DNA from: a virus
Direction: 5' to 3' (one strand)
DNA length: 64,000 bases
Virus record (IMG/VR): IMGVR_UViG_3300018019_000005
Location: 62,001-126,000 of that record
Position numbers and translations under genes: made by a program. Shown piece by piece: positions 13,187 through 62,205 of this stretch. Below the pieces are notes generated by a model that saw nothing but the letters and a program-made list of their open reading frames with translations, made no database searches and had not been told where the DNA came from. Position 1 is the stretch's first letter, and the number at the start of each line of letters is the position of its first letter.

Positions 13187-13497
13187 TGCTACCCGTACAA
13201 GTGTTCAGGGCAGAGGTAGTCCGGCTGGAGAACGAACTTCAATCAGCGAAGATACGGCTGGCGGAGGCGGAGTTGCGGTGCTGCCATGCGTGGAGTAAAC
13301 CGGTGTATGACCCCATCATCCACGAAGCGTACCATATCGCTGGCGACCCGCCCGGCACCATGGGGGTTGACCGGCAACTTCCCACGGATGTGCCCCGGCA
13401 GGAAATTCCCCGTTGGATAAGGACTTGTGGACGGTGCGGGGTGGTGGAGACAACGCAGCAAACCAAGGAAAATATCACAAAGGTACCGGTGTTCTAA
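13186..13497 (+). CDS. Hypothetical protein with coiled-coil and zinc motif, 103 aa
   Basis: TGATG overlap and GGGGGGAG set the start. The N-terminal heptad-like helix (VVRLENELQSAKIRLAEAE) is followed by CCHAW...TCGRCG, which could bind zinc. Common phage layout of unknown function. Overlaps the next gene as TAATG. Confidence 0.65.
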   Translation: MLPVQVFRAEVVRLENELQSAKIRLAEAELRCCHAWSKPVYDPIIHEAYHIAGDPPGTMGVDRQLPTDVPRQEIPRWIRTCGRCGVVETTQQTKENITKVPVF

Positions 13498-14435
13498 TGG
13501 AATTCTACGGAAAGCTCAAACAAGCGTTGGTGGAGATTGGGGAGGTTGCCCCCAATAGCCTGATTCTCGCCTTCGCCTCCGGGAGTTGGCAGCATGGTGC
13601 CCGGATGGACGACAAGGCCGACCTTGATGTGTCCGGCGTGTTTGTGGGTCGCCCGGAAGAAGAACTCCAACTTGACAACGAGAACCCTCGTAAAATGGGT
13701 CATGCGAGCGCTAGCACGGCAGGAGACAAGCGCAAGAACACCAAGGCGGACGTTGACATCAAAGCTTACTCCCTACGCCGTTGGGCGGGTCTGGCGCTTA
13801 AGGGCAATCCTTCGGCGCTTTCCTTCCTGTTTGTCCCGGACAGCATCAAGGACCTATCCTTGGAGCCAAAGGCACGCTGGTCCTGCCCCTATGATGCGCA
13901 GCAGTGTGAGTATCCAAGCTGCATAAGCGACCATGAGGGCTACCGGGACAGCACGTGCGTGAGGCGTAACCGGGAGGCGCATACAAACACGGTGTGGGAC
14001 ACCATGATTCTGCCCAACACCAATGACTTCCTGTCCGCACGGGCGGCGAAAGCCTTTATCGGGTTGGCGGATAACCAGTTCCACCGGATGCTTGGGGAGG
14101 GCACGGGTAAGCACGGGACCCGGAAAGCCGAGAAGGAAGAGTACGGCTACGACCCCCAAGCGGCTATGCACATGATTCGAGGCATCCAAGAATGTCTTGA
14201 GCTTTTGCGGACCGGCAGGATGACTTTCCCCCGACCGGAGAAGACCCTCCTGCTTAACATTCGCACCGGAAAACTTGGTCTAAAAGAAGTATTAGACCTA
14301 TATGGGGTTTTACGGAATGAAGTACCCGAAGCAGAGAAGAACACCCCGCTTCCCCCGGAATGTGACCGGGATAAGGTCAGCAAGCTCGTCGCCGGGGCCA
14401 TCGTGAAACATTGGAAAGAGAGGAAGTGGCTATGA
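13497..14435 (+). CDS. Nucleotidyltransferase-superfamily protein, 312 aa
   Basis: Residues about 28-48 (ASGSWQHG...ADLDVSGVFV) fit the pol-beta nucleotidyltransferase pattern GS-x-x-x-G followed by an acidic D-x-D pair, and a later KADVDIKAYSL gives a third acidic strand. Phage homologues are annotated as nucleotidyltransferases of unknown substrate. Start from TAATG overlap. It ends in ATGA overlap with the next gene. Confidence 0.65.
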   Translation: MEFYGKLKQALVEIGEVAPNSLILAFASGSWQHGARMDDKADLDVSGVFVGRPEEELQLDNENPRKMGHASASTAGDKRKNTKADVDIKAYSLRRWAGLALKGNPSALSFLFVPDSIKDLSLEPKARWSCPYDAQQCEYPSCISDHEGYRDSTCVRRNREAHTNTVWDTMILPNTNDFLSARAAKAFIGLADNQFHRMLGEGTGKHGTRKAEKEEYGYDPQAAMHMIRGIQECLELLRTGRMTFPRPEKTLLLNIRTGKLGLKEVLDLYGVLRNEVPEAEKNTPLPPECDRDKVSKLVAGAIVKHWKERKWL

Positions 14436-15023: not shown

Positions 15024-15140
15024 TACCGGGGATATACGGGCTGAACGGCTAACCAATGGAAATCAGACAAGTTATCGGGAACTAAAGTTAGGTTCACAGT
15101 AAATAAATGGCCGATTAAAAAAATCCCCATATTCTCCCAA

Positions 15141-15155
15141 AACCGTGGTATTATG
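15141..15155 (+). promoter_or_regulatory. Extended -10 promoter CCGTGGTATTAT
   Basis: TG-G-TATTAT at 15146-15154 with AAAAAAATCCCC about 25 nt upstream. Downstream there is no coding gene for over 700 nt on this strand, only the structured segment ending in a terminator. Confidence 0.6.
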
Positions 15156-15500
15156 TAAGTGAAGGAAGAAAACGAACTACCGACCCTATACTTGTAGGGG
15201 TAAAATTGAGGCGGGGAGCCGGACGATATTGTTACCCGGTCAGCCTCACAAGATTCCGGGCCGAAAGGCCCACCAGTTTGAGGGGGCGAAAGCCCCTACC
15301 ATTTTACGCCCCGAAAGGGGCACCAGTTTTGGAGAGACATGCGAAATAGGAAACCAAACCCGATGCAGTGGCAGCCTAAGCGGCATTTTAGCCGCCCAAG
15401 CTTCGGTGGGCTTCCGTTCGCAGGAGTCGCATAGCGAAAAAGCGAACAGAGTGCAAGGATGCCCACCGAACTCAAGGTTCTGTGGGCTTTTTTATTTTGC
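15156..15500 (+). ncRNA. Candidate structured RNA with tandem GAAA hairpins
   Basis: Bounded by an extended -10 promoter and a strong intrinsic terminator. Three consecutive 5-bp stems with GAAA tetraloops lie at 15258-15271, 15282-15297 and 15308-15321; each has a different stem sequence but the same fold and is followed by ACCAGTTT or ACCATTTT. Further stems include GCGGC-ATTTTA-GCCGC near 15379 and CCCAAGC-TTCG-GTGGG near 15395. No convincing open frame. Position next to a tRNA array recalls large phage RNAs such as GOLLD and ROOL, but I cannot match it to either. Confidence 0.5.
15461..15500 (+). terminator. Intrinsic terminator
   Basis: GCCCAC...GTGGGC with an inner GAAC-TCAA-GGTTC stem, followed by TTTTTTATTTT. 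It ends the preceding non-coding segment, and its 3' side overlaps the end of the minus-strand HNH gene. Confidence 0.8.
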
Positions 15501-15849
15501 ACTTGCAGTGAATGAGTCGGTGACAACATACGCATAGAGGACGGAGGTTCTCTGGCTGATTGTTAGCGTGGTTGTCATCAATGTGATGGATGTCAATCTG
15601 GCACGAGCATTTAGCAACAAAGCCGCATTCATCGCAGACTCTCGGGGGGTTTGACTTATCTCGGTATGGATGAGAGGGGTAGTTACACCTTCCAGTCCAA
15701 CGGGCTTGTGAGTTACGGCAAAGATACTTACCACCTTTGAGTCGCACTTTAACATCTCCACAGGCGGCACAAAGCCCGGTTTTAGTTTCTTTGTTAACAA
15801 AAAGCATTCTATGAATCCACTGTCCCATATTAAAGACAGTGGAAGTCAT
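15472..15849 (-). CDS. HNH endonuclease, 125 aa
   Basis: C-terminal HNH core (CQIDIHHIDDNHANNQPEN then LRPLCVCCHRLIH) with zinc-binding CxxC pairs earlier (CAACGD, CDECGF). It is the only minus-strand gene in the RNA zone and ends inside the terminator hairpin. The ATG at 15849 is used; in-frame ATGs at MGQW and MLFV are alternatives. Confidence 0.75.
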   Translation of the reverse strand: MTSTVFNMGQWIHRMLFVNKETKTGLCAACGDVKVRLKGGKYLCRNSQARWTGRCNYPSHPYRDKSNPPRVCDECGFVAKCSCQIDIHHIDDNHANNQPENLRPLCVCCHRLIHCKCKIKKPTEP

Positions 15850-15883: not shown

Positions 15884-15958
15884 GGTGACTGTAACTCAGT
15901 GGCAGAGTGCCTGACTGTGAATCAGGATACGGGGGTTCGATTCCCCTCAGTCACCCCA
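15884..15958 (+). tRNA. tRNA-His (GTG)
   Basis: Cloverleaf with G-1 (15884), acceptor GTGACTG/CAGTCAC, discriminator C and encoded CCA, the His-specific G-1:C73 arrangement. Anticodon stem CCTGA/TCAGG, loop CTGTGAA. Confidence 0.93.
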
Positions 15959-15963
15959 AGTTT

Positions 15964-16035
15964 GGTGAGTGAACCCCACAGGGTACTCGGTCTGGTCCGA
16001 GGGGGCGGGGGCAGCCCACTTCGTCATTCACCCCA
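15964..16035 (+). other. tRNA-sized element with His-like acceptor but non-canonical core
   Basis: 72 nt beginning with G plus GTGAGTG pairing CATTCAC, then C and CCA, as in the adjacent tRNA-His. Inside are only mini-hairpins (ACCC-CACA-GGGT; CTCGG-TCTGGT-CCGAG; GGG-CAG-CCC) and no TTC T-loop. Either a decayed tRNA copy or a tRNA mimic. Confidence 0.4.
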
Positions 16036-16041
16036 ATATAT

Positions 16042-16119
16042 GGTCCCGTAGCTCAGCCCGTATAGAGCAACTCCCTCCGAAGGAGAAGGTCGTCGGTTAA
16101 AATCCGACCGGGACTTCCA
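16042..16119 (+). tRNA. tRNA-Arg (CCG)
   Basis: Acceptor GGTCCCG/CGGGACT, D-arm GCTC/GAGC, anticodon loop CTCCGAA, T-loop TTAAAAT (atypical, no TTC), encoded CCA. Anticodon CCG reads CGG. Confidence 0.8.
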
Positions 16120-16125
16120 GATTAG

Positions 16126-16201
16126 GCCCCTGTAGCTCAGTGGACAGAGCGCCCGGTTTCGACCCGGATGGTCGCAGGTCCGAATCCTGTCAGGGGTTCC
16201 A
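16126..16201 (+). tRNA. tRNA-Arg (TCG)
   Basis: Acceptor GCCCCTG/CAGGGGT, anticodon loop TTTCGAC, encoded CCA. T-loop begins TCCGAAT. Confidence 0.85.
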
Positions 16202-16240
16202 AGATTTGAAAACAGTAATTGGACTTCGTAGTCCTTTAGT

Positions 16241-16657
16241 ATGAGGTCTAAGAACTGTTACAAATGTGGTAAGGAAAAAGAGCACCGGTCAGCACCATAC
16301 TGCCTCGAATGCCAGCGAGGCTACAATAAGCAAAACTACGAGAGGAATAAGACCTCGTATGTTGAAAAAGCGAAACGGAATGGTGCAAGGTATAGGAAAG
16401 AAGCCATAGAGTGGGTCTTACAGTATTTGATGACTCACCCCTGTATCGACTGTGGAGAATCTGACCCGATAGTCCTTGAGTTTGACCATCGGGAAGGAGA
16501 AAAGAAATTAGCAGCCGTTTCAACTTTAATGACACAAATGAAGGCATCATTAAAGACGATAAAGGCTGAGATAGTTAAGTGCGACGTGCGATGCGCCAAC
16601 TGTCACCGTCGTAAAACAGCGAAAGAAAGAGGTTGGTACAAGATTGAGGCCCCGTAG
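16241..16657 (+). CDS. HNH endonuclease, 138 aa
   Basis: HPCIDCGESDPIVLEFDHR and later CDVRCANCHRRKT form the C-HNH-C core of small phage HNH proteins; an N-terminal CxxC pair (CYKCGK, CLEC) may be another finger. No clear SD. The stop codon lies inside the following tRNA-Arg gene, so insertion is tight against the tRNA. Confidence 0.8.
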   Translation: MRSKNCYKCGKEKEHRSAPYCLECQRGYNKQNYERNKTSYVEKAKRNGARYRKEAIEWVLQYLMTHPCIDCGESDPIVLEFDHREGEKKLAAVSTLMTQMKASLKTIKAEIVKCDVRCANCHRRKTAKERGWYKIEAP

Positions 16658-16727
16658 CTCAGCCCGGACTAGAGCAGCGGTCTACGAAACCGAAGGTCAG
16701 TGGGTTCAAATCCCCTCGGGGCTTCCA
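16648..16727 (+). tRNA. tRNA-Arg (ACG)
   Basis: Acceptor GGCCCCG/CGGGGCT, anticodon stem GCGGT/ACCGA, loop CTACGAA, T-loop TTCAAAT, encoded CCA. The TAG of its D-region is also the stop codon of the preceding HNH gene. Confidence 0.88.
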
Positions 16728-16732
16728 AGATT

Positions 16733-16870
16733 GAGACCACGTGACGCACCCAAAGGGATGGCGAGTCTGATGGGTTCGGTGGTAAGCAGGGCACCAGTTC
16801 TTCGGAACAGGCGAGGTCCCCAGCTATGCACTTCCCGCCCCTGCGGAGGGCGGTTGTCACTGGTCACTGT
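16733..16870 (+). other. Structured spacer between tRNAs
   Basis: No gene. ACCA-c-GTGAC near the 5' end pairs with GTCAC-TGGT near the 3' end, enclosing GTTC-TTCG-GAAC and CGCCC-CTGCGGA-GGGCG hairpins. The segment 16749-16782 resembles 20172-20205. Probably part of a structured RNA. Confidence 0.35.
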
Positions 16871-16874
16871 TTGT

Positions 16875-16948
16875 TGGGATGTCATCCAATGGTAAGATGC
16901 CCGGCTGTTACCCGGAGAATGCAGGTTCGAGTCCTGCCGTCCCAGCCA
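16875..16948 (+). tRNA. tRNA-Asn (GTT), copy 1
   Basis: Acceptor TGGGATG/CGTCCCA, anticodon loop CTGTTAC, T-arm GCAGG-TTCGAGT-CCTGC, discriminator G, CCA. Confidence 0.9.
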
Positions 16949-17113
16949 GTTTGAGGTCGTATGAGCGAGTGTCGCTGGTGTGATGAGGGTCGCCCTTGGT
17001 TGGCAGGTTGTGAGGGCAAACAGCACCAGCCGTTGTATGGTTCAGGCGAGCACTCAGGGACGATGTGTCATAACAACTCGTCTATATATCCGCCTGAGAA
17101 GGAGACAGTTTCT
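16949..17113 (+). other. Structured spacer between tRNA-Asn genes
   Basis: 165 nt with no gene. GCTGGTG pairs CACCAGC around an AGGG-TCG-CCCT hairpin; a second unit has TCAGGC/GCCTGA around GACGA/TCGTC. Unknown role. Confidence 0.3.
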
Positions 17114-17188
17114 TCTGGAGTAGCTCAACGGTAGAGCGTTCGGCTGTTAACCGAATGGTTGGGGGTTCGATTCCCTCCTCCAGAGCCA
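17114..17188 (+). tRNA. tRNA-Asn (GTT), copy 2
   Basis: Acceptor TCTGGAG/CTCCAGA, anticodon TTCGG-CTGTTAA-CCGAA, T-loop TTCGATT, discriminator G, CCA. Different sequence from copy 1, so not a recent duplicate. Confidence 0.93.
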
Positions 17189-17194
17189 AAATAT

Positions 17195-17274
17195 GGAGTC
17201 GTGACGCAGATGTGGTTAAGCGTAGCCGCCTTTTAAGCGGACGGTCGTGGGCACCCAATCCACCGGCTCCACCA
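17195..17274 (+). tRNA. tRNA-Lys (TTT) with atypical T-loop
   Basis: Acceptor GGAGTCG/CGGCTCC, anticodon CCGC-CTTTTAA-GCGG, CCA encoded. The T-loop reads CACCCAA instead of TTCGANT, so the T54-T55 pair needed for the usual D/T-loop contact is absent. Confidence 0.75.
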
Positions 17275-17280
17275 AGATGT

Positions 17281-17357
17281 GCCGCCGTAACTCAACTGGA
17301 CAGAGTACTCGGCTCTTGCCCGAGGAGTTGGAGGTTCGAGTCCTCTCGGCGGTACCA
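17281..17357 (+). tRNA. tRNA-Lys (CTT), copy 1
   Basis: Acceptor GCCGCCG/CGGCGGT, anticodon CTCGG-CTCTTGC-CCGAG, T-loop TTCGAGT, CCA. Confidence 0.9.
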
Positions 17358-17362
17358 AATTT

Positions 17363-17438
17363 GGGTCGGTAGCTTAACTGGCAGAGCAGGGGCCTCTTAA
17401 GCCCAAGGTTGAGGGTTCGATTCCCTCCCGACCCACCA
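17363..17438 (+). tRNA. tRNA-Lys (CTT), copy 2
   Basis: Acceptor GGGTCGG/CCGACCC, anticodon loop CTCTTAA in stem GGGC/GCCC, T-arm GAGGG-TTCGATT-CCCTC, CCA. Confidence 0.92.
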
Positions 17439-17445
17439 AGATGCT

Positions 17446-17482
17446 CTTGAGAGCGTATTATAGGACTTAAGGTGCTCTCAAG
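17446..17482 (+). repeat. 9-bp inverted repeat in tRNA spacer
   Basis: CTTGAGAGC and GCTCTCAAG pair perfectly around a loop containing GTATTATAG. No T-run follows; could be a processing hairpin or carry a promoter in its loop. Confidence 0.5.
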
Positions 17483-17513
17483 ATAATGCCGAGAAGTTTG
17501 AAAGTTTGGTTTT

Positions 17514-17590
17514 GCCTCTTTAGCTGATGCGGTGCATAGCGCCCGCCTGAAGAGCGGGAGAACAGAGTTCGACTCTCTGGGGAGGCACCA
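17514..17590 (+). tRNA. tRNA-Phe (GAA)
   Basis: Acceptor GCCTCTT/GGGAGGC, anticodon CCCGC-CTGAAGA-GCGGG, T-arm CAGAG-TTCGACT-CTCTG, CCA. Confidence 0.92.
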
Positions 17591-17596
17591 AGTTAT

Positions 17597-17670
17597 AGCG
17601 GAGTAGAGCAGTCAGGTAGCTCGGTTGGCTCATAACCAACAGGCCGCTGGTTCAAATCCAGCCTCCGCAA
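17597..17670 (+). tRNA. Initiator-like tRNA-fMet (CAT)
   Basis: Body matches bacterial initiator tRNA: position 1 (A) does not pair with 72 (A), then GCGGAG/CTCCGC; the D-arm GAGCAGTCAGGTAGCTC and ending CGCAACC follow the bacterial initiator pattern. Anticodon stem GTTGG/CCAAC has two rather than three G:C pairs next to the loop. The last base of CCA is T in the genome, so the end must be completed. The phage also encodes peptide deformylase. Confidence 0.72.
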
Positions 17671-17675
17671 CCTTG

Positions 17676-17718
17676 ATACGCTACAGCGTATTAGCAACAG
17701 ATATGCGGTGTAGCGTAT
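17676..17718 (+). repeat. 10-bp inverted repeat in tRNA spacer
   Basis: ATACGCTACA and TGTAGCGTAT are perfect complements flanking 23 nt. Same type of spacer hairpin as at 17446. Confidence 0.5.
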
Positions 17719-17725
17719 GGTTTGA

Positions 17726-17802
17726 TGCGGGGTATAACTCTGGTGAGTTTCGGAGTCTCATAAGCTCTGTAAAGGTGGGTTCAATTCCCATCCCCGCTAC
17801 CA
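17726..17802 (+). tRNA. tRNA with CAT anticodon (Met or Ile2), irregular
   Basis: GCGGGG/CCCCGC acceptor with an unpaired T at each side, D-arm AACTC/GAGTT, anticodon loop CTCATAA in a stem with two G.U pairs, T-loop TTCAATT, CCA. Identity (Met, initiator or lysidine-modified Ile) cannot be told from sequence. Confidence 0.65.
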
Positions 17803-17809
17803 TCTTAGG

Positions 17810-17883
17810 GTTGTCTTGTAGCTCAGCGGAAGAGCGACCGGGGTACCGGGAGGTCGGTGGTTCGATTCCACCCATGCAACTCA
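17810..17883 (+). pseudogene. Degenerate tRNA
   Basis: D-arm GCTC/GAGC and T-arm GGTGG-TTCGATT-CCACC are intact, but the anticodon arm is only CCGG-GGTA-CCGG and the acceptor GTTGTCT/ATGCAAC has a mismatch and an offset. No assignable anticodon. Confidence 0.5.
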
Positions 17884-17886
17884 AGC

Positions 17887-17995
17887 CGTACGTGAGTGCC
17901 CCTTAAAAGGCCATTGTTTGGGCGGCGTAATTGTCGGGTAACATACTCATGGTGTGGCGCAGCGCAACCATCATGGCTCCCAAACACCACGTACG
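17887..17995 (+). other. Nested-hairpin RNA element in tRNA array
   Basis: Outer stem CGTACGTG/CACGTACG (8 bp) encloses a 74-nt unit, 17916-17989, with GTTTGGG/CCCAAAC followed by A and CCA, the exact size and end of a tRNA. Its inside folds as a long CATGGT/ACCAT-CATG hairpin rather than a cloverleaf. Possibly a small structured RNA or tRNA mimic. Confidence 0.4.
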
Positions 17996-17999
17996 TTCT

Positions 18000-18074
18000 G
18001 GCTCGCTAGTTCAGTGGCAGAACGCCGCTCTCATAAGGCGGATGTCACAGGTTCGATTCCTGTGCGAGCTACCA
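18000..18074 (+). tRNA. tRNA with CAT anticodon (Met or Ile2)
   Basis: Acceptor GGCTCGC/GCGAGCT, D-arm GTTC/GAAC, anticodon CCGCT-CTCATAA-GGCGG, T-arm ACAGG-TTCGATT-CCTGT, discriminator A, CCA. Normal cloverleaf; elongator Met or Ile2. Confidence 0.85.
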
Positions 18075-18079
18075 AGTTA

Positions 18080-18230
18080 TGGCGGAAGCATACTGGACTG
18101 GCAAGGCTAACCGGTTTGAGTATGTGGGCTGAGGCCCGAGAGGTGAAAACCTCCCATTGTCCGTCACCGTTTGGAGGTTGACGAGTACTGGCTCTGATTA
18201 GCTGGGGGAGTACTGCCAAACCTCCATTAT
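18080..18230 (+). other. Structured spacer between tRNAs
   Basis: About 150 nt without a gene. Stems: CATACT/AGTATG; GGGC-TGAG-GCCC; GAGGT-GAAA-ACCTC; and an 8-bp TGGAGGTT (18172)/AACCTCCA (18219) enclosing two AGTACT palindromes. Likely transcribed structured RNA. Confidence 0.35.
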
Positions 18231-18305
18231 CAGGTCCTAGCATAATGGTAATGCCCTAGTCTGGGGGACTAGTGATTGGCAGTTCGACTCTGCCGGACCT
18301 GACCA
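18231..18305 (+). tRNA. tRNA-Pro (GGG)
   Basis: Acceptor CAGGTCC/GGACCTG, D-stem GCAT/ATGC, anticodon CTAGT-CTGGGGG-ACTAG, T-arm GGCAG-TTCGACT-CTGCC, CCA. Confidence 0.92.
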
Positions 18306-18312
18306 AAGTTTA

Positions 18313-18342
18313 CGGGCTGTAGCTGAACGGCCTAACTTGTGC
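18313..18342 (+). pseudogene. Fragment resembling a tRNA 5' half
   Basis: CGGGCTG-TA-GCTGAACGGC looks like an acceptor strand plus D-arm with no 3' half before tRNA-Pro(TGG) begins. Confidence 0.3.
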
Positions 18343-18417
18343 CGGGGCGTAGGGTAACGGTAACCCACTTGCTTTGGGAGCAAGTCGTTGGAGGTTCAAA
18401 TCCTCTCGCCCCGACCA
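18343..18417 (+). tRNA. tRNA-Pro (TGG)
   Basis: Acceptor CGGGGCG/CGCCCCG, D-arm GGGT/ACCC, anticodon CTTGC-TTTGGGA-GCAAG, T-loop TTCAAAT, CCA. Confidence 0.93.
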
Positions 18418-18461
18418 AAAATATCACTCCGACCAATCTTCTGACTTCAGTATCTATTAGT

Positions 18462-19052
18462 ATGAAGAGTCAAGAAGTTGGTGGAGTGAATGTAAGACTT
18501 CCACACATCTGCAAAAAATGTGGGAAGGCATTAACTGAGGACGGTAAGAACTTCCCAACACGTTGGTCTAATGGGAATAAGTATTACCGATTTCTATGCC
18601 GTATTTGCTTTAATAAGCATAACAAACGTTGGAAACCTCGACATGGAATGACCGAGGGGGTTTACGAGCGAAGGAAACAGACTCTAAGCACCCAAAGGTA
18701 TAAAGGCGAAGCAAGGCATGTTACAAACGACTGCAAGAGTTGGGATAAACGCCATGGGTTTGCCTGCGACCTTGACCGGAACTACGTAGCTGCTCTTATA
18801 TCCACTGGCTGCCGATACTGTGGAGTAACCCAAAGAGAACTACGCATTGGGTTGGACCGATTAGATAACATGCGGGGTCATTTGAAAAGTAACGTAATTC
18901 CCTGTTGCACAAGATGTAACATTGTTCGAGGAAATATGCCCTACAAAGCGTGGTTACTAATCGCTGATACAATGCGAAAAGTTAGGGAGCTTGGGTTATT
19001 TGCGGATTGGGTTCCGGGAAATAAAAGCAAAGATTATTCCGGGGTCGTCTGA
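18462..19052 (+). CDS. HNH homing endonuclease, 196 aa
   Basis: Start taken at ATG 18462, since upstream in-frame sequence runs into tRNA-Pro. N-terminal zinc pairs (CKKCGK, CRICF), then the core: CRYCGVTQRELRIGLDRLDN and VIPCCTRCNIVRGNM, an HNH variant found in phages (LDRLDN in place of HH). Sits between two tRNA-Pro genes. Confidence 0.8.
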   Translation: MKSQEVGGVNVRLPHICKKCGKALTEDGKNFPTRWSNGNKYYRFLCRICFNKHNKRWKPRHGMTEGVYERRKQTLSTQRYKGEARHVTNDCKSWDKRHGFACDLDRNYVAALISTGCRYCGVTQRELRIGLDRLDNMRGHLKSNVIPCCTRCNIVRGNMPYKAWLLIADTMRKVRELGLFADWVPGNKSKDYSGVV

Positions 19053-19062
19053 TTTAAATTTT

Positions 19063-19141
19063 CGGTGTGTAGCTCAGCCCGGTTTAGAGCACTCCGTTCG
19101 GGGCGGAGGGGTCGGGAGTTCAAATCTCCCCACGCCGACCA
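19063..19141 (+). tRNA. tRNA-Pro (CGG)
   Basis: Acceptor CGGTGTG/CACGCCG, anticodon CTCCG-TTCGGGG-CGGAG, T-arm GGGAG-TTCAAAT-CTCCC, CCA. With GGG and TGG it completes coverage of the Pro codons. Confidence 0.92.
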
Positions 19142-19152
19142 AGATTGATTTA

Positions 19153-19191
19153 TACGTCAAGTTTACCCCTCTGGGGCTAAAAGTTGACGTA
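19153..19191 (+). repeat. Inverted repeat in tRNA spacer
   Basis: TACGTCAA/TTGACGTA (8 bp) encloses CCCC-TCT-GGGG. Fourth long hairpin of this sort between tRNA genes. Confidence 0.5.
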
Positions 19192-19204
19192 AATAGCAAG
19201 ATAT

Positions 19205-19279
19205 TCCAGAGTCCTCTAACGGTAGGAGAACCGGCTCTGACCCGGTTAATGAGAGGTTCGAGTCCTCCCCTCGGAGCCA
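19205..19279 (+). tRNA. tRNA-Gln (CTG), imperfect acceptor
   Basis: Anticodon ACCGG-CTCTGAC-CCGGT and T-loop TTCGAGT are good, CCA is encoded, but TCCAGAG/CCTCGGA has two mismatches. May be functional or starting to decay. Confidence 0.65.
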
Positions 19280-19283
19280 AGCT

Positions 19284-19321
19284 AGCCCGGAAAATGTGGG
19301 TTCGAGTCCCACCGGATAATC
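19284..19321 (+). pseudogene. Fragment resembling a tRNA 3' half
   Basis: Contains an isolated T-arm GTGGG-TTCGAGT-CCCAC with no D- or anticodon arm upstream and no CCA. Confidence 0.35.
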
Positions 19322-19359
19322 GCATGGAGTAGCCTTCCCGTCAGGCAGAACGCCCCCAG

Positions 19360-19437
19360 CGACCCGTCATTCAATGGTAGGATACCGGGGATTGATTCAG
19401 GGAGAAGGTTGCGGGTTCGAGTCCCGTCGCCCCGCCA
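19360..19437 (+). pseudogene. tRNA-like element A (3' half fits element B)
   Basis: D-arm ATTC-AATGGTA-GGAT and T-arm GCGGG-TTCGAGT-CCCGT are intact and CCA is encoded, but CGACCCG does not pair with CGCCCCG, and the anticodon arm is too long with no valid stem. Its 3' strands pair perfectly with the 5' strands of the next element. Confidence 0.5.
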
Positions 19438-19438
19438 T

Positions 19439-19520
19439 GCGGGGCGTAGCTCAATGGTAGAGCGTCTCCCATGATGCAGCCGGAAAAACGGGGTTCGAGT
19501 CCCCGTAGGACATGGTACAG
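19439..19520 (+). pseudogene. tRNA-like element B (5' half fits element A)
   Basis: Acceptor strand CGGGGCG, D-arm GCTC/GAGC and a T-arm CGGGG-TTCGAGT-CCCCG are present, but no downstream acceptor strand pairs. CGGGGCG and TCTCC instead complement CGCCCCG and GGAGA of element A, giving a canonical tRNA only in permuted order. Confidence 0.5.
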
Positions 19521-19608
19521 CGTAGCCTCATGGTAGCTGTGACCAAGATAACCATGGTACTCTTGGTCTTGACCTTCGTTTATTTGGATAAGACACCGGC
19601 GTGAGTTT

Positions 19609-19698
19609 AGGGGTGACGGGCAATCTGGTTCGGCCCAGCGGTCTCCAAAACCGTCTTCCTTCGGGATACTGGGGGTTCAAATCCCTCCACCCCTGCCA
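19609..19698 (+). tRNA. tRNA-Trp (CCA) with long variable arm
   Basis: Acceptor AGGGGTG/CACCCCT, G73 and the GGT-CTCCAAA-ACC anticodon arm match bacterial tRNA-Trp. Unlike normal tRNA-Trp it has an enlarged D-loop and a 16-nt variable region containing TCC-TTCG-GGA, as in class II tRNAs. CCA encoded. Confidence 0.82.
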
Positions 19699-19732
19699 AG
19701 ATTCTAATGTAAATTTTTGGTGCAGATAGAGT

Positions 19733-19767
19733 CTCCAAATCTACGCTATGCAACTCATATATTGGAG
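19733..19767 (+). promoter_or_regulatory. SD-masking hairpin before HNH gene
   Basis: CTCCAA (19733) pairs with TTGGAG (19762), the ribosome binding site of the HNH gene at 19774; the loop contains CATATATT. Confidence 0.45.
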
Positions 19768-19773
19768 GATTGT

Positions 19774-20118
19774 ATGGCGACAGAAGCTTGGAAAACATCT
19801 CATCAAGAAGAAATGAAAGCATACAGGAGAAAACATTATCAAAATCACAAAGAGCCATATCTTATCCGAGCAAAGAACCAAAGGAAAGAAATTAGAGATT
19901 GGTTCAAGGAGTTCAAACGCTCTCTAAAATGTGCTCGTTGCCCGGAAAATCATCCTGCATGTTTAGATTTTCATCATAGAGATTCAAGCAAAAAAGACAT
20001 GTCAATAAGGCAAGCTGTGAACCAAGGTTGGGGAAAGAAACGAATCCTTGCTGAGATAAGAAAATGCGAAATACTATGCTCTAACTGTCACAGGAAGGAG
20101 CACCATCCTGAAATTTAA
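19774..20118 (+). CDS. HNH endonuclease, 114 aa
   Basis: Start at ATG 19774 behind TTGGAGG. CARCPENHPACLDFHHRD and CEILCSNCHRKEHH give the HNH/zinc core shared with the gene at 16241. Basic N-terminal half. AT-rich relative to the flanking RNA genes. Confidence 0.82.
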   Translation: MATEAWKTSHQEEMKAYRRKHYQNHKEPYLIRAKNQRKEIRDWFKEFKRSLKCARCPENHPACLDFHHRDSSKKDMSIRQAVNQGWGKKRILAEIRKCEILCSNCHRKEHHPEI

Positions 20119-20141
20119 TTATTCGTTTGTTTCTCAATCTC

Positions 20142-20152
20142 TGTGGTATTAC
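20142..20152 (+). promoter_or_regulatory. Extended -10 promoter TGTGGTATTAC
   Basis: Same core as the other sites (TGGTATTA), located exactly where the structured non-coding segment begins. Confidence 0.5.
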
Positions 20153-20730
20153 CAAGAATGGCGTGCAAGGTCCCGTAGGGTCGGCAAGACTGATGGGAAC
20201 GGTTGTCGTGGCAGAAATCGGGATACCGTGCCTGCACAAGCGGCTTCCGGGCGACGAGGGGGACCGGTCATTAACCCCGTAGAAAGCGAAGCCAAACCGC
20301 CAGTACGCTGGCTGCACGCCGTTGGGTTTAAGTTGGTGCTCCTGACCGACCTAAGTCTCTGGTGAGTTGACATAACCGGGGGCGATGTCTTAAGGGCGTG
20401 GTCACAGGGGCGCTGTTCGGGCGGGGTGAGAGCGTTAGGACAACGCAGTGGGCCTCGGGGTGAGACACCATAAGAAACCCGACCACATCAACCCGTATGG
20501 TGTACGGCAATGAGACCGGCCAATTCGATGGATATGAACCTGAGAGAAGACCGGTTACACCCCGCCCAAACCCTAAAAGCTTGACTCGCCGCCTAGTCCT
20601 ATGGGCGGATACCGGAGTGCGAAGAGCGATGGACGGCTATAGGGGTCGTGCGCAGGCTTACCGGCAATTAGCCATCGATCACATTCGGTGTGGCAACGAG
20701 CGAGGATTAACGGTTTTCCGAATCTTAGAT
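20153..20730 (+). ncRNA. Candidate large structured RNA, about 580 nt
   Basis: No convincing open frame on the forward strand although GC is high. Many local stems: CCC-GTA-GGG; GCCAG-TACG-CTGGC; GACAT/ATGTC; GCGTT-AGGAC-AACGC; CCGTA-TGGTG-TACGG; CCGCC/GGCGG; CGATGG/CCATCG, plus GTGCA/TGCAC. Begins at a promoter and ends just before an HNH gene with its own GGAGG. Size and setting resemble GOLLD or ROOL class phage RNAs; identity not established. Confidence 0.45.
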
Positions 20731-20741
20731 AAGGAGGCTCT

Positions 20742-21293
20742 ATGGGATACGCTGACGTACTTGTACTAGACATGAACTGGATACCCGTGGGCTTCATGGG
20801 CTGGCAGAACGCCGTCAAGCTCTGGTTCGAGGACCGTGCCAAGATTGTCAAGGAGGACGAGGGCGGGAAGGTCCTGCACTCACCGTCCTTTGAAATGGGC
20901 ATGCCAAGGGTGATAGTCGTTCGCAACGCTTGGCATCGCCGTAAGAAGCAGTCCGTCCCCTGCACCCGGCGCAACCTGTTAGTGCGTGACAATGCAACAT
21001 GCCAGTACTGCGGCAAGGTGGTCCACACCTCGGAATACACGATTGACCACGTCATCCCGCTTTGCCAGAAGGGCAAGTCCGACTGGGACAACCTTGCCAT
21101 CGCCTGTATGCCGTGCAACAAGGAAAAGGCCGGACGTACCCCGGCGCAGGCGGGCATGACCTTGCTCAGCAAGCCCTATACGCCGAAGCCCACGGACCCC
21201 CGCTTCAACTTCAAGCTGCATATCAGCAAGATAAGGAACGAGTGGAAAGATTACGCACCGTACCTATACTGGAATGTTGTACTTGATAAATGA
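20742..21293 (+). CDS. HNH endonuclease, 183 aa
   Basis: AAGGAGGCTCT before ATG. Residues about 82-126: CQYCGKVVHTSEYTIDHVIP and NLAIACMPCNKEKAGRT, the classic CxxC-HNH-CxxC core of the stand-alone HNH family found in phages and bacteria. Could be a homing gene or a functional phage nuclease; its base composition is closer to the core genes than to the AT-rich homing genes. Confidence 0.88.
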   Translation: MGYADVLVLDMNWIPVGFMGWQNAVKLWFEDRAKIVKEDEGGKVLHSPSFEMGMPRVIVVRNAWHRRKKQSVPCTRRNLLVRDNATCQYCGKVVHTSEYTIDHVIPLCQKGKSDWDNLAIACMPCNKEKAGRTPAQAGMTLLSKPYTPKPTDPRFNFKLHISKIRNEWKDYAPYLYWNVVLDK

Positions 21294-21326
21294 ACTACTT
21301 ACCCCATTCATTGAAGGAGAGTTTAA

Positions 21327-22124
21327 GTGGAGCCATATGGGGAAGTATACATTATCGTAAACCAAGTCAACAACAAGGTATATATCGGGCAAACCATAAG
21401 AACCCTGCACGAGCGATGGCTGGCTCATTGTAGGAGAGCCAAAGCGGGTGGGACAAATTGTGCATACTTCTATAATGCCATCCGAAAATATGGAGAAGGT
21501 AGCTTCAAAGCCTATCGTATAAATGTTGCCTTCTCCAAAGAAGAATTGGATACCCTTGAGGTCTCCTATATTGAAAAGTTTAAGGCGTGCGACCCTGAAT
21601 ATGGATACAACTCAACTCTTGGAGGCGGAGGGGTAGTTGCGAATGAGGCTACTCGTCAAAAATTCAAAGAGGCGAACAAAGGCGAAAGAAATCCAATGTT
21701 TGGTAAGCATTGTTCAGAGCAGACTAGACAAAGGATGAGTGCCTCCCAAAGGGGACACTCAGTCCCAGAAAGCACTAGAAAGGCTGTTGCAGAATCAAAC
21801 AGGAGAAGAGCTGGAAAACCACAAGCTCCCCACAAGTCTGGCTGGAAACACTCCGATACCAGTAAGCAAAAAATGCGGGAAGCATTAAAAGGAAGAACCT
21901 CGGCTTGGAATAAAGGCAAAAAAATGCCAGAAGGCTTTGGTGAAAAAATAGCCAAGGCAAAGCGTGGGAAACCACGACCGGTGCATGTAATAGCAGCCTT
22001 GAGGGAAGCTAATAGAAAAAGACCACCTGTGCGCTGGTTATGTAAAGATGGCGTAGCAATCAAAATTGCGGCATCCGAAGTTATTAACCGCCTCTGTGAT
22101 GGTTGGAGGCTAGGAAGGAAATAA
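21327..22124 (+). CDS. GIY-YIG homing endonuclease, 265 aa
   Basis: GTG start behind AAGGAGAG. GIY-YIG domain in residues 5-95 (VYIIVNQ, KVYIGQT, catalytic R at HERW, E in LEVSYIEKF). Then several NUMOD3 repeats (NPMFGKHCSEQTRQ, GWKHSDTSKQK) and a C-terminal helix-turn-helix-like end. AT-rich insertion between the HNH gene and the last two tRNAs. Confidence 0.9.
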   Translation: MEPYGEVYIIVNQVNNKVYIGQTIRTLHERWLAHCRRAKAGGTNCAYFYNAIRKYGEGSFKAYRINVAFSKEELDTLEVSYIEKFKACDPEYGYNSTLGGGGVVANEATRQKFKEANKGERNPMFGKHCSEQTRQRMSASQRGHSVPESTRKAVAESNRRRAGKPQAPHKSGWKHSDTSKQKMREALKGRTSAWNKGKKMPEGFGEKIAKAKRGKPRPVHVIAALREANRKRPPVRWLCKDGVAIKIAASEVINRLCDGWRLGRK

Positions 22125-22134
22125 ACAAGTTTAC

Positions 22135-22224
22135 GCCCCCGTGAGCGGAGATGGACATCGCAACAGTTTCCTAAACTGTCTATGCCGAAAGGCATCGCAG
22201 GTTCGAGTCCTGCCGGGGGTACCA
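22135..22224 (+). tRNA. Class II tRNA with CCT anticodon (Arg by anticodon)
   Basis: Acceptor GCCCCCG/CGGGGGT, D-arm of the Leu/Ser type, anticodon ACAGT-TTCCTAA-ACTGT, long variable arm ATGCC-GAAA-GGCAT, T-arm GCAGG-TTCGAGT-CCTGC, CCA. The anticodon reads Arg AGG, but the architecture is that of Leu/Ser tRNAs, so the amino acid is uncertain. Confidence 0.75.
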
Positions 22225-22231
22225 AATTTAC

Positions 22232-22306
22232 GGGGGAATCGTCTAACGCAAAAGGCACCCGTCTTCTAAACGGGCAATCCGGGTTGGACTCCCGGTTCCC
22301 CTTCCA
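22232..22306 (+). tRNA. tRNA-Arg (TCT)
   Basis: Acceptor GGGGGAA/TTCCCCT, anticodon CCCGT-CTTCTAA-ACGGG, T-arm CCGGG-TTGGACT-CCCGG (C56 replaced by G), CCA. Confidence 0.88.
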
Positions 22307-47504: not shown

Positions 47505-48758
47505 TCATTCTCCCTTGCCATCGAAATAGTATGTTTCCTCCCGACCATAGGGACGAACCATCTTCCATAAAATCTCATAGGCTCCAACAATGTTGCCGTT
47601 CTCTAGCTTGATGGCAGCATTGACAATATCAACGGGAAAACACCCATGCAAGTAGTGCAGCCTGTTTCGGTGCTCAGGGTAGATGCCACGCTCTAACTCG
47701 TTGTAAGCCTTCTGTGCTTTCAGGGCTTGCAAAAGCTTATCGTGGAACGCCTTGTACAATCCCATCTGCCAACCTTTGACCCATTTGGCAAAGTCCCTTG
47801 GAACAGACAAATCGTAGAGGACTTCACCTGTATTATGGTTCAGCTTGCTGTTATGGTCAAGCCAGGGAGACATGGGATTGTGCATTTCTTGCCAGATTTT
47901 CTGGGGTGTGACTCCCGTGACAATCCTGTGGATTCTACAGTACTCGGCGAGCTTCACCTTCGCCCGGACAGGCGGGAAGTGAGGCCGGTAGACGGCAGCA
48001 ACATAGCCCTCCTCCGTCATGTCCTTGTCCGCCATGCACTCTTCCACCGACATGTCGAACTTCGGCACCAACCGGCACCAGTCCCGGTCCTTGGCATAGC
48101 TGTTTAGCTGCTTGTGGAAAGCCTCAAGCTCGGGGTATTCCAATTCCTCCCCGGTCTCGTTGGCAATGGCAGCAATAAGCACCAGCCCCTCGAAGTTGTA
48201 GGGGACAACCACCTTGGTAATCTTGGAGATAATCTCAAAGAACAGAGTGGTATCCTCGGGAAGGAAATCAGCGAACGCCCTATACTTGACGAACTTCTGC
48301 ACCTTCTCCGTGGCATACTGCGCCCCCGGCGAGTCAAAGGAACCCCGGCTGGCGACCCCGTAGATGCCCTCGTAGTGCCACGAGATTCCCGCCCACCCAT
48401 CCAGCTTGCGGGTGATGGTTATAGGAGACCTCCACATCTTCGCCTGCCCGAGGAGGAACTCTGGGGTGAACGTCTCGTCTTGAACTTCCAACTCCCCCTG
48501 ATTGTTGCGGAAAATGTGGGGTCCTCTTTGGTTGAGGTTGAAAAATTTTGATGGGGGTCTGGATACAATCACCCCGGCGTCATCCACAATCAGACCACGG
48601 CAGATACAAGCTTCAAGAGACCAGTGATTCTCGAAAGTACAACGATTCGAGTAATTCAGGATTCGCAGGGGCAGTGCGGGGTGACGGCGCTCATTGATAA
48701 AACCCTCCCTGATTTGCTTGTTCAGTTCGTCAATGTTTAGCAGATTTTCAAGCTTCAT
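47505..48758 (-). CDS. rnlA: T4 Rnl1-type RNA ligase
   Basis: 417 aa. Motif I KLDGWAG with nucleophile Lys118; upstream RGLIVDD and SRPPSKFFNLNQ as in Rnl1; TLFFEIIS (motif IIIa region), EGYVAAVY (IV) and KVKLAEY (V). ATP-dependent joining of 5'-phosphate and 3'-OH RNA ends; in T4 it reseals tRNA cut by host anticodon nucleases after Pnkp heals the ends. Its Pnkp partner lies 1.5 kb upstream in the same direction, separated by two HNH genes. Confidence 0.88.
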   Translation of the reverse strand: MKLENLLNIDELNKQIREGFINERRHPALPLRILNYSNRCTFENHWSLEACICRGLIVDDAGVIVSRPPSKFFNLNQRGPHIFRNNQGELEVQDETFTPEFLLGQAKMWRSPITITRKLDGWAGISWHYEGIYGVASRGSFDSPGAQYATEKVQKFVKYRAFADFLPEDTTLFFEIISKITKVVVPYNFEGLVLIAAIANETGEELEYPELEAFHKQLNSYAKDRDWCRLVPKFDMSVEECMADKDMTEEGYVAAVYRPHFPPVRAKVKLAEYCRIHRIVTGVTPQKIWQEMHNPMSPWLDHNSKLNHNTGEVLYDLSVPRDFAKWVKGWQMGLYKAFHDKLLQALKAQKAYNELERGIYPEHRNRLHYLHGCFPVDIVNAAIKLENGNIVGAYEILWKMVRPYGREETYYFDGKGE

Positions 48759-50241: not shown

Positions 50242-51330
50242 TCAAAAATCTTCGTAGGCTCCGCATCGGGGGCAATGCCTCCAACCTTTCTTTTCCGGCT
50301 TGAACTGGCAAGTAGCAGAGTGGTCCGTGGTTCCGCCCACAGGGTAAACCTTGAACCCCATGTCCTTCCACATACGGATTACTTGCCATCTGTCATCAAT
50401 CAAAAAAGCTATTCGTTCCTTCGGAATGACCCGGAGTATCGTCTCCATAATCCGTCGCTTGACGATATAATCGTGGTCAAAGTTGGTAGCCGGGCGCATC
50501 AAGAGGAGGTCGAATGGCACCCGATAACAACTCAGCCAAGAACAAGTGTCTGTCGAGCAGGAGTCGTGTCTTCCACTGAGAATTCCGATATTGTGGGTGC
50601 TGTACAGTCCCCGGACCCACTTCGCCACGCCCTCCCGGCAGGAGTCCAGCAGGACCTTCGTCTCGTCGAACTGGTTCCGCTCGCCCTCGTTCTCGGCAAG
50701 GCTGCCGTCCACGTCGCAGAACACCCACGGTGCGCCCGGCAGGCGCTCGTGAAAGTCCCTGCCCCCGGCGATGACGGCGTTAAGCTCGTTCCAGTCGTCT
50801 ACCGCCCGGTTGGTTTCATCCAGACCGTAGCCAGCCGGGCGGACGGTTGTTTCCCGCAGCCGCTTGAACTGTTGGTCGATGGCTTCCTCGGGCACGCATT
50901 CTTTGCCGGTGCGTAGGGCGTTCCGCCGCTTACACTCTTCCTTGTCCACGTTCATGACATGCAGGCAGAACTTTACCCGAGCGCCACGGGCAATCTCTTC
51001 CAGCTTTTGCCGGGTGCGGGACACGCAGTTGGTGTCATCCACGATGACGTTGAGTCCCATGGCGAGGAACATACGGATGCCCTCTTCCTCATACTTGCGG
51101 ACCACATCTTCCTTCGAGTGGTTCCACGGGGAATCACAGTAGAGCATGGCACGGATGGTGTCCCGGTTTACCCGGACGGTCGCTCCCGCTGCCCAGTTGA
51201 CAAGACTGCGGGCATGGGTGGACTTTCCTGAGCCAGCCGGGCCGACCATAACGGTCAGCGTGGGGGCATTTTCCTTACCCCCGGAGTAATCCATGTACTG
51301 TTCACTGTGCGATGTCTTTTCGAGTTCCAT
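50242..51330 (-). CDS. pseT: Polynucleotide kinase 3'-phosphatase (Pnkp/PseT type)
   Basis: 362 aa. P-loop GPAGSGKST at 30-38, then VNRDTIRAML and VIVDDTNC of the 5'-kinase; DVDGSLAE at about 206-213 begins the HAD 3'-phosphatase domain, with ILSGRHDSCS and FLIDDRWQVI as later HAD motifs. Same domain order as T4 Pnkp (about 300 aa), plus a C-terminal zinc-like CPRCGAY. It heals RNA ends for the Rnl1-type ligase. Preceded by a clear extended -10 promoter and GAGGAG. Confidence 0.92.
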   Translation of the reverse strand: MELEKTSHSEQYMDYSGGKENAPTLTVMVGPAGSGKSTHARSLVNWAAGATVRVNRDTIRAMLYCDSPWNHSKEDVVRKYEEEGIRMFLAMGLNVIVDDTNCVSRTRQKLEEIARGARVKFCLHVMNVDKEECKRRNALRTGKECVPEEAIDQQFKRLRETTVRPAGYGLDETNRAVDDWNELNAVIAGGRDFHERLPGAPWVFCDVDGSLAENEGERNQFDETKVLLDSCREGVAKWVRGLYSTHNIGILSGRHDSCSTDTCSWLSCYRVPFDLLLMRPATNFDHDYIVKRRIMETILRVIPKERIAFLIDDRWQVIRMWKDMGFKVYPVGGTTDHSATCQFKPEKKGWRHCPRCGAYEDF

Positions 51331-61506: not shown

Positions 61507-62205
61507 ATGTTTATCTATTTGATTGTTAATCATAAGACTGGAAAGTACTATGTCGGTCAGCATAAAGGAAGGAATCTAAGGGCTTACTTGCAACGGAAGT
61601 TGTCCGCTGCAAAACACAATGAAGGAAAGGGTGGTTCTTATTTATTCGCTTCCATGCGCAAGCACCCGGACCCCCAAGTCTGGTCCATTCATGCCCTTCG
61701 TTCGGATATCCAGACCCGTGAGGAGCTTGATGAGTGCGAACGGGAGTTCATTCGGTTTTTGCGGGCGCAAGACCCCGAGTATGGATATAACATCTGCCGG
61801 GGAGGGGAGGGGTTTACGGGACCACATAACCCATCTTTTGGAATTAACCAAAGCCGTATCATGAAAGAAATTTGGGAACGACCAGATTTCCGGGAAAAGA
61901 TGGCAAAAAGAAAAGGACGTTTGGGGAGTAAAGCTTCGGAGAAAACACGAGAGAGGTTGAGACTCAGTCATTTAGGTATAAAGCCCACAACAGATGCTTT
62001 GAAAAAACGGGCTGAAACAAGGAAGTTGAAAGGAATAAGGTCGCCAATGTTAGGAAGACACCACTCGAATGAAACTAGAAAGAAGATGGTTGAAGCTCAT
62101 TCCCATAGAGTGTGGTCCGATGAACAAAGGGAATCTCTTGCTATTAGGATGCGTGAAGTGAGAAAACTAAGTCCAAGAGGAAACAAGGGAGTGGAGGCGG
62201 TATAA
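61507..62205 (+). CDS. GIY-YIG homing endonuclease, 232 aa
   Basis: Residues 1-95 as in the paralogues (IYLIVN, GKYYVGQHKG, WSIHALRSDIQ, GYNICRGGEG), followed by NUMOD-like repeats (SPMLGRHHSNETRKK). Placed between an unrelated small gene and a larger cysteine-motif protein gene. Confidence 0.9.
   Translation: MFIYLIVNHKTGKYYVGQHKGRNLRAYLQRKLSAAKHNEGKGGSYLFASMRKHPDPQVWSIHALRSDIQTREELDECEREFIRFLRAQDPEYGYNICRGGEGFTGPHNPSFGINQSRIMKEIWERPDFREKMAKRKGRLGSKASEKTRERLRLSHLGIKPTTDALKKRAETRKLKGIRSPMLGRHHSNETRKKMVEAHSHRVWSDEQRESLAIRMREVRKLSPRGNKGVEAV

Follow-up and report, generated by a model that had tools for sequence, protein, structure and literature searches.

Ribosome-mediated leader-peptide attenuators of the trp, his and pheST type have been modelled (PMC1183508), and the his leader has been used as an assay of codon speed (PMC4046918). 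The phage leaders described here resemble these attenuators in having a short ORF with control codons, a competing antiterminator and terminator, a region 2 located behind the control codons, and an intrinsic terminator before the first gene. They differ in that the regulated genes would be tRNA genes, the leaders are borne by phages, and the product of the operon would itself be the sensed molecule. Moreover, up to nine amino acids are covered at once, and several leaders of the related phage G001 split the full set of 20 amino acids between four operons. T-box leaders, too, attenuate transcription from a 5' leader in response to tRNA. In a T-box the uncharged tRNA is bound directly, whereas the phage leader would sense tRNA via the translating ribosome, and no T-box covariance model of Rfam was matched above or below the gathering score. 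GOLLD and ROOL are likewise structured RNAs near phage tRNA genes, but the phage leader has an ORF and an attenuator and matched no Rfam family. Phage tRNAs counter tRNA-cutting defences (PMC10264068, PMC11555353), and tRNA supply answers tRNA loss in both cases; these two papers concern the tRNAs themselves, and PMC10264068 makes no mention of leaders, operons or attenuation. The open literature searched, in which subscription papers and bioRxiv are largely missing, yielded no account of tRNA operons or phage tRNA arrays controlled by leader-peptide attenuation. The mechanism class is known, and its use on tRNA operons and the polling of up to nine amino acids by one leader appear to be new.

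The window, i.e., the whole stretch of 64,000 nucleotides that was analysed, covers positions 62001–126000 of a 140-kb IMG/VR phage record (G000:C1:62001-126000). The element considered here is very probably a ribosome-mediated transcription attenuator controlling the phage tRNA operon downstream of it. The ORF, its conservation, the leader–array match, the alternative pairings and the modelled switch site were computed, and the coordinates of the features are given in Table 1. The extended -10 promoter and the strong terminator named in a preliminary description of the locus were both located, and the leader transcript would start at about 15161. Elements of the type (GG)TATTAT/TATTAG, resembling the -10 element of the window, were also present upstream of several other leaders. 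Shared promoter features were noted at L068, L070, L046 and window positions 15120–15160, namely a TTGACA-like -35 element, ACTACCGA/CCGACT within the spacer and (GG)TATTAT/TATTAG at -10. The HNH endonuclease ORF between the attenuator and tRNA-His does not belong to the switch. The locus L005 lacks this ORF and its flanks, and there the T-run of the terminator ends close to tRNA-His, which follows shortly after. A second GGGTGGGTTTTTTGCG stretch persists immediately 5' of tRNA-His in the window.

Table 1. Coordinates of the leader features and of the downstream tRNA array in the window
Feature	Position	Strand	Basis
Extended -10 element of the leader promoter, TGGTATTAT	15146–15154	+	Sequence; also conserved in L005
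5' UTR helix GAGGC/GCCTC around GCCGGACGA....GTTACCCGGTC	15205–15250	+	Comparison with G005
GNRA hairpin 1, GGGCC-GAAA-GGCCC (GGCCC-GCAA-GGGCC in L005)	15258–15271	+	Sequence, relative
GNRA hairpin 2, GGGGC-GAAA-GCCCC	15283–15296	+	Sequence
GNRA hairpin 3, GCCCC-GAAA-GGGGC	15308–15321	+	Sequence
Shine-Dalgarno GGAG of the leader ORF	15331–15334	+	Sequence
Leader ORF, 31 codons, MRNRKPNPMQWQPKRHFSRPSFGGLPFAGVA*	15339–15434	+	Conserved in G001/G002 and G005
Control codons 1–17, MRNRKPNPMQWQPKRHF	15339–15389	+	Match to downstream tRNA set
Region 2, 5' half of the antiterminator, TTCGGTGGGCTTCC-GTTCGC, within the ORF tail	15402–15421	+	Inverted repeat, duplex energy
Region 3, 3' half of the antiterminator, GCGAAC...GGATGCCCACCGAA, overlapping the terminator 5' arm	15442–15470	+	Inverted repeat, duplex energy
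Intrinsic terminator, regions 3:4, GCCCACCGAAC-loop-GTTCTGTGGGC-T6	15461–15493 (stem 15461–15487)	+	Sequence, folding
Homing-type HNH endonuclease ORF inserted between the attenuator and tRNA-His	15472–15849	-	Absent from L005
Regulated tRNA array	15885–22306	+	ARAGORN, Rfam tRNA

The preliminary description had stated that the transcript held no coding frame, and had named a conserved protein in one frame among the observations that would refute its reading of the locus. A conserved short ORF of 31 codons with a ribosome-binding site directly upstream was found near the 5' end of the transcript, and its translation is predicted. In the comparison with the homologue in G005, a 157-kb record, codons 1–15 had four synonymous and no non-synonymous differences, and codons 16–31 had four synonymous and seven non-synonymous differences. 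Hence, the statement was wrong, because the first 15 codons differ only synonymously. The first 17 residues, MRNRKPNPMQWQPKRHF, are made up of H, R, N, K, F, M, P, Q and W only, and each of these nine amino acids is used. The same nine amino acids form the complete set carried by the downstream array, in which His, five Arg, two Asn, two Lys, Phe, three Met, three Pro, Gln and Trp tRNAs were called by ARAGORN, and the ORF codons read all 15 anticodon types of this array.

The match was evaluated by scoring each upstream region against its own and all other tRNA sets, and a nearly block-diagonal matrix was obtained for the leaders. The mean own-set score was 11.38 over 70 arrays, compared with 7.28 ± 0.31 for permuted sets (maximum 8.63 in 20,000) and 6.80 for the reverse strand; some of the 70 arrays come from related phages or are internal sub-arrays produced by a gap rule, and thus not all are independent, and many are not expected to have a leader. 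According to the exact match in the window and the 70-array permutation, the control codons correspond to the operon product. All starts were used in the final ORF scan; a first-start rule overlooks Tunturi_5 array 1 and phiCbK array 3. Every anticodon type of the array was read by leader codons in 10 of 12 leaders. Synonymous recodings covered the anticodons nearly as well, and individual leaders did not go beyond them, so that codon choice adds little beyond the choice of amino acids.

Leaders matched to the other arrays of these phages were predicted before those arrays were examined, and the prediction held. In the window phage (G000), the leader MKNLSSNSLSYSSSLLLSGLVLPDGWDG stands before the Tyr/Leu/Ser array and includes each of the six Leu codons. 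In G001, MNMKTAITNPVDLIEAVAAVCEGGDTSPSGGLG, a peptide containing EAVAAVCEGGD, lies upstream of the Val/Gly/Ala/Asp/Glu/Cys array, and MLTITMPHTQTQTTISSGGGACLA, containing TQTQTTI, upstream of the Ile/Thr/Gln array; the four arrays of this phage jointly cover all 20 amino acids. Matched leaders in the 455-kb relative G006 were found for Ser/Leu, for Ile/Thr/Gln, for Gln/His/Arg/Asn/Lys and for Val/Gly/Ala/Cys/Asp/Glu, and several of its arrays had no matching leader. The Tyr/Leu array of G004 also had a matched leader. A wider search of IMG/VR with B-type and A-type leaders returned known phages only, plus chance matches. A permuted tmRNA and tRNAs with a CTA anticodon (amber-reading, called Pyl by ARAGORN) were observed in G006, at L047:13868-14272 (-) and L047:8853-9053 (-). 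The RlaP protein beside the tRNA block was 93% identical between G000 and G001, and the helicase was 62% identical; judged from these identities, the two are mosaic phages that perhaps exchange the tRNA block.

Among tRNA-rich phages without close kinship to this group, matched leaders were found in Caulobacter, Brevundimonas and Agrobacterium phages, in Tunturi_5, and in two huge uncultured phages. The 634-kb LR745206 had matching leaders at three arrays, among them a Pro/Asp/Gln array preceded by ...PQPQDQDP... and an Asn/Arg/Leu/Val/Ile/Thr/Met array. Small tRNA groups with tiny matching ORFs were observed in LR745208 (L102–L104), e.g., a Tyr/Cys/His group preceded by MNQHLHHHCY, 67 nt upstream; a search for a clear terminator at these sites found none. 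The Val/Ile/Gln/Asn/Arg array of CcrColossus is preceded by ...RNNVRQIRVRQ..., and matching leaders were also present in Atu_ph07, phiCbK and the Brevundimonas/Caulobacter phages Kabachok, Bajun, Kikimora, CcrPW, C1 and BL47. The Leu/Cys/Tyr/Ser array of Tunturi_5 is preceded by MKTLCLSSYCLSSSLSLS...; this array is a Leu/Tyr/Ser array with an extra tRNA-Cys, and its leader carries two Cys codons. Tunturi_5 is a cultured Acidobacteriota phage with 43 tRNAs (PMC11924767), and at least two matched leaders were observed in it (L052, L053). Matching leaders were looked for at the arrays of KVP40, T5, GAP32, S-CRM01 and Bacillus phage G and none was found, and no convincing one was found at the arrays of XacN1.

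The RNA switch was explored through the pairings available to the tail of the ORF. An inverted repeat at 15402–15415 and 15457–15470 allows this tail to pair with the 5' arm of the terminator, and the antiterminator 2:3 and the terminator 3:4 are mutually exclusive. The 2:3 duplex of the window had an energy of -33.9 kcal, compared with -23.4 for synonymous recodings (p=0.017), and in 17 of the 20 leaders the ORF tail paired with region 3 more strongly than synonymous recodings did (p<0.03), the terminator arms having been entered by hand in the duplex and occupancy analysis. In the window lineage, the tail of the ORF changes its amino acids and the pairing is retained. The inner antiterminator helix GTTCGC/GCGAAC becomes GTTTGC/GCAAAC in G001, and one A-T pair of the terminator GCCCAC/GTGGGC becomes G-C in G005; according to this comparison of three homologues, which were read by eye, the pairings survive two-sided changes. 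For CcrColossus and phiCbK, a Rho-independent terminator separating the leader from the first tRNA had already been predicted, independently, by the genome annotators. Duplex or terminator evidence was weak for phiCbK gp335, LR206_3, G001_D and Tunturi_5.

In the switch model, the 3' arm of the terminator was left untranscribed, and the occupancy of the 5' arm by upstream RNA was calculated for each ribosome position. For the window leader, the 5' arm was held at 99% up to codon 18 and at 26% from codon 21, and the matched segment ends at codon 17. The modelled antiterminator occupancy was high with the ribosome on the control codons and dropped at the end of the matched segment, a drop that was seen in 19 of 20 leaders. 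The position of the drop followed the end of the matched segment (r=0.96, n=19, mean offset 0.3 ± 2.6 codons), both values being read off by the analyst. For 16 chosen representatives, r was 0.92 (randomisation p=5e-5). Throughout, manual choice or a single rule fixed part of the array boundaries, segment ends and switch codons. In these modelled profiles, a stall on the control codons frees region 2, and a ribosome finishing the ORF covers it. When region 4 was present, equilibrium folding favoured the terminator for several leaders, the window leader included. The model hence relies on the antiterminator forming before region 4 is transcribed, and a terminator that wins at equilibrium would be expected of a kinetic attenuator. 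Equilibrium folding by itself reported the switch poorly, and folding before region 4 is made was used instead.

A sequence of events can be proposed from these features. RNA polymerase would start near 15161, and a ribosome would translate the leader behind it. If a tRNA for control codons 1–17 (M, R, N, K, P, Q, W, H and F) were scarce, uncharged or cleaved, the ribosome would stall there; region 2 would then be free to pair with the emerging region 3, the terminator would not form, and the polymerase would continue into the tRNA genes. If all these tRNAs were plentiful, the ribosome would cover region 2, the 3:4 terminator would form, and the tRNAs would not be made. The operon product would be the sensed molecule, which would close a feedback loop, and this loop would be self-limiting because the product relieves the stall. 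Other arrays in these phages would be governed in the same manner by leaders of their own, matched to their own tRNA sets. Since the leader peptide is spelled with the amino acids of the array and is joined to an RNA switch, the phage probably activates its tRNA genes when ribosomes lack those tRNAs. We infer the stalling itself, the rise in tRNA transcription caused by it, and a trigger by tRNA shortage during infection, e.g., through host tRNA-cutting defences. An RlaP-family nucleotidyltransferase (13413–14435, +) is located just upstream of the leader, and the window further encodes a T4-Rnl1-type RNA ligase (47505–48758, -) and a PNKP-like polynucleotide kinase (50242–51330, -). These RNA-repair genes fit a phage that meets tRNA damage, and such damage may be the trigger.

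The strong structure of the transcript could be read in another way, as a structured noncoding RNA of the GOLLD/ROOL kind with its own function, whose GNRA loops dock in receptors or bind protein and whose position next to the tRNAs is due to chance. The 340-nt fold had an energy of -129.1 kcal/mol, compared with -105.6 ± 5.3 for shuffles (z=-4.4, 0/100), and it adjoins a phage tRNA array. The three GAAA-loop stems of the preliminary description were present at a spacing of 25 nt, followed by ACCAGTTT, TACCATTTT and ACCAGTTTT. Furthermore, GGGCC-GAAA-GGCCC of hairpin 1 is replaced by GGCCC-GCAA-GGGCC in a relative with 94% identity over this element (contigs of 317 and 238 kb); the stem appears to be maintained by selection, as had been proposed, because both sides changed and the GNRA loop was kept. 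However, no Rfam family, GOLLD, ROOL and other phage RNAs included, was matched at gathering or permissive thresholds, and the ORF is conserved with synonymous changes only in its control half. The homologue in G005 lacks the tandem hairpins yet retains the ORF, the terminator switch and, at 73% identity over 172 nt, much of the 3' half, which pointed away from a noncoding RNA and indicates that the hairpins are lineage-specific and the ORF and switch conserved. The other arrays also have an ORF and a switch without such a hairpin cluster. A selected, structured transcript thus stands from the preliminary description, and a free-standing noncoding RNA, given the ORF and the missing Rfam match, is highly improbable. 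Among 54 sequences searched on both strands, this locus and its homologues alone had clusters of three GNRA hairpins (at least 5 bp, at least 3 GC). Pattern searches of IMG/VR and relatives gave no tandem hairpins beyond close kin, and no real match was obtained when phage records were searched at the nucleotide level with the RNA or with 25 kb of window sequence. In the sequences searched, the hairpins are a part of the 5' UTR between the promoter and the leader ORF that is confined to one lineage; possible roles include stabilising the 5' end, insulating the ribosome-binding site and binding some partner. A tmRNA-like or tRNA-minihelix reading of the ACCA tails was rejected; there is no tRNA-like domain, the tails are lineage-specific, and ARAGORN reported no tmRNA (tRNA-like domain with tag ORF) in the window. 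Alternatively, the terminator could be set from within the 5' UTR, for instance at the GCCGGACGA...GTTACCCGGTC helix, by a ligand riboswitch or a protein-binding attenuator, with the ORF being secondary. This model was considered because of a P1-type pairing; in the MFE fold of the window, TCGGTGG of region 2 has a possible partner in CTACCGA (15177). The 5' UTR helix is also conserved between the window and G005, where the outer stem is GACGGT/ACCGTC and the inner motif is retained. Such a switch is nevertheless very unlikely, as the sequences upstream of the A-, C- and D-type leaders showed no conserved counterpart of the helix and the leader–array match would be left unexplained. The CTACCGA pairing, which was not evident in G005, can cover part of region 2 in untranslated RNA and, in the modelled fold, would keep the operon switched off as long as the leader goes untranslated.

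The ORFs themselves might encode trans-acting micro-proteins, with the terminator only ending their transcript and the tRNAs transcribed from another promoter. The peptides are conserved, and two of them are annotated as hypothetical proteins (Atu_ph07 FDI40_gp469 and phiCbK gp335). However, the peptides before different arrays share no sequence relationship and track the tRNA set, the tail in the window lineage changes its residues without loss of the pairing, and region 2 exceeds synonymous recodings; this explanation was considered the least probable of all. The same anatomy could also work with the opposite sign or another trigger, stalling being a sensor of a general block of translation (host shut-off, antibiotics) and not of specific tRNAs. 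A stall at any codon of the segment yields the same output, and leaders of the ermC type sense general slowing (PMC2965389). A general sensor, on the other hand, would not need an amino-acid match array by array, and this reading is unlikely. The attenuator that responds to its own tRNAs is hence preferred.

Why phages carry tRNA genes has been an open question for decades, with codon compensation and the replacement of tRNAs destroyed by host defences as the competing answers. A leader that spells the amino acids of its operon indicates what the phage measures, namely a shortage of those tRNAs at the ribosome, and the leader–array match predicts, array by array, when each array switches on. 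The question is directly testable in the cultured phages phiCbK, CcrColossus, Atu_ph07 and Tunturi_5. Moreover, the match provides a reading-frame signature for annotating unexplained small ORFs 5' of phage tRNA clusters, and attenuation would be extended from amino-acid and synthetase operons to tRNA operons. On balance, tRNA-rich large phages seem to commonly split the genetic code among leader-gated operons, each polling the supply of exactly its own tRNAs. Together, these operons would form a circuit that senses and repairs the tRNA pool, possibly as an inducible answer to host tRNA-cutting immunity.
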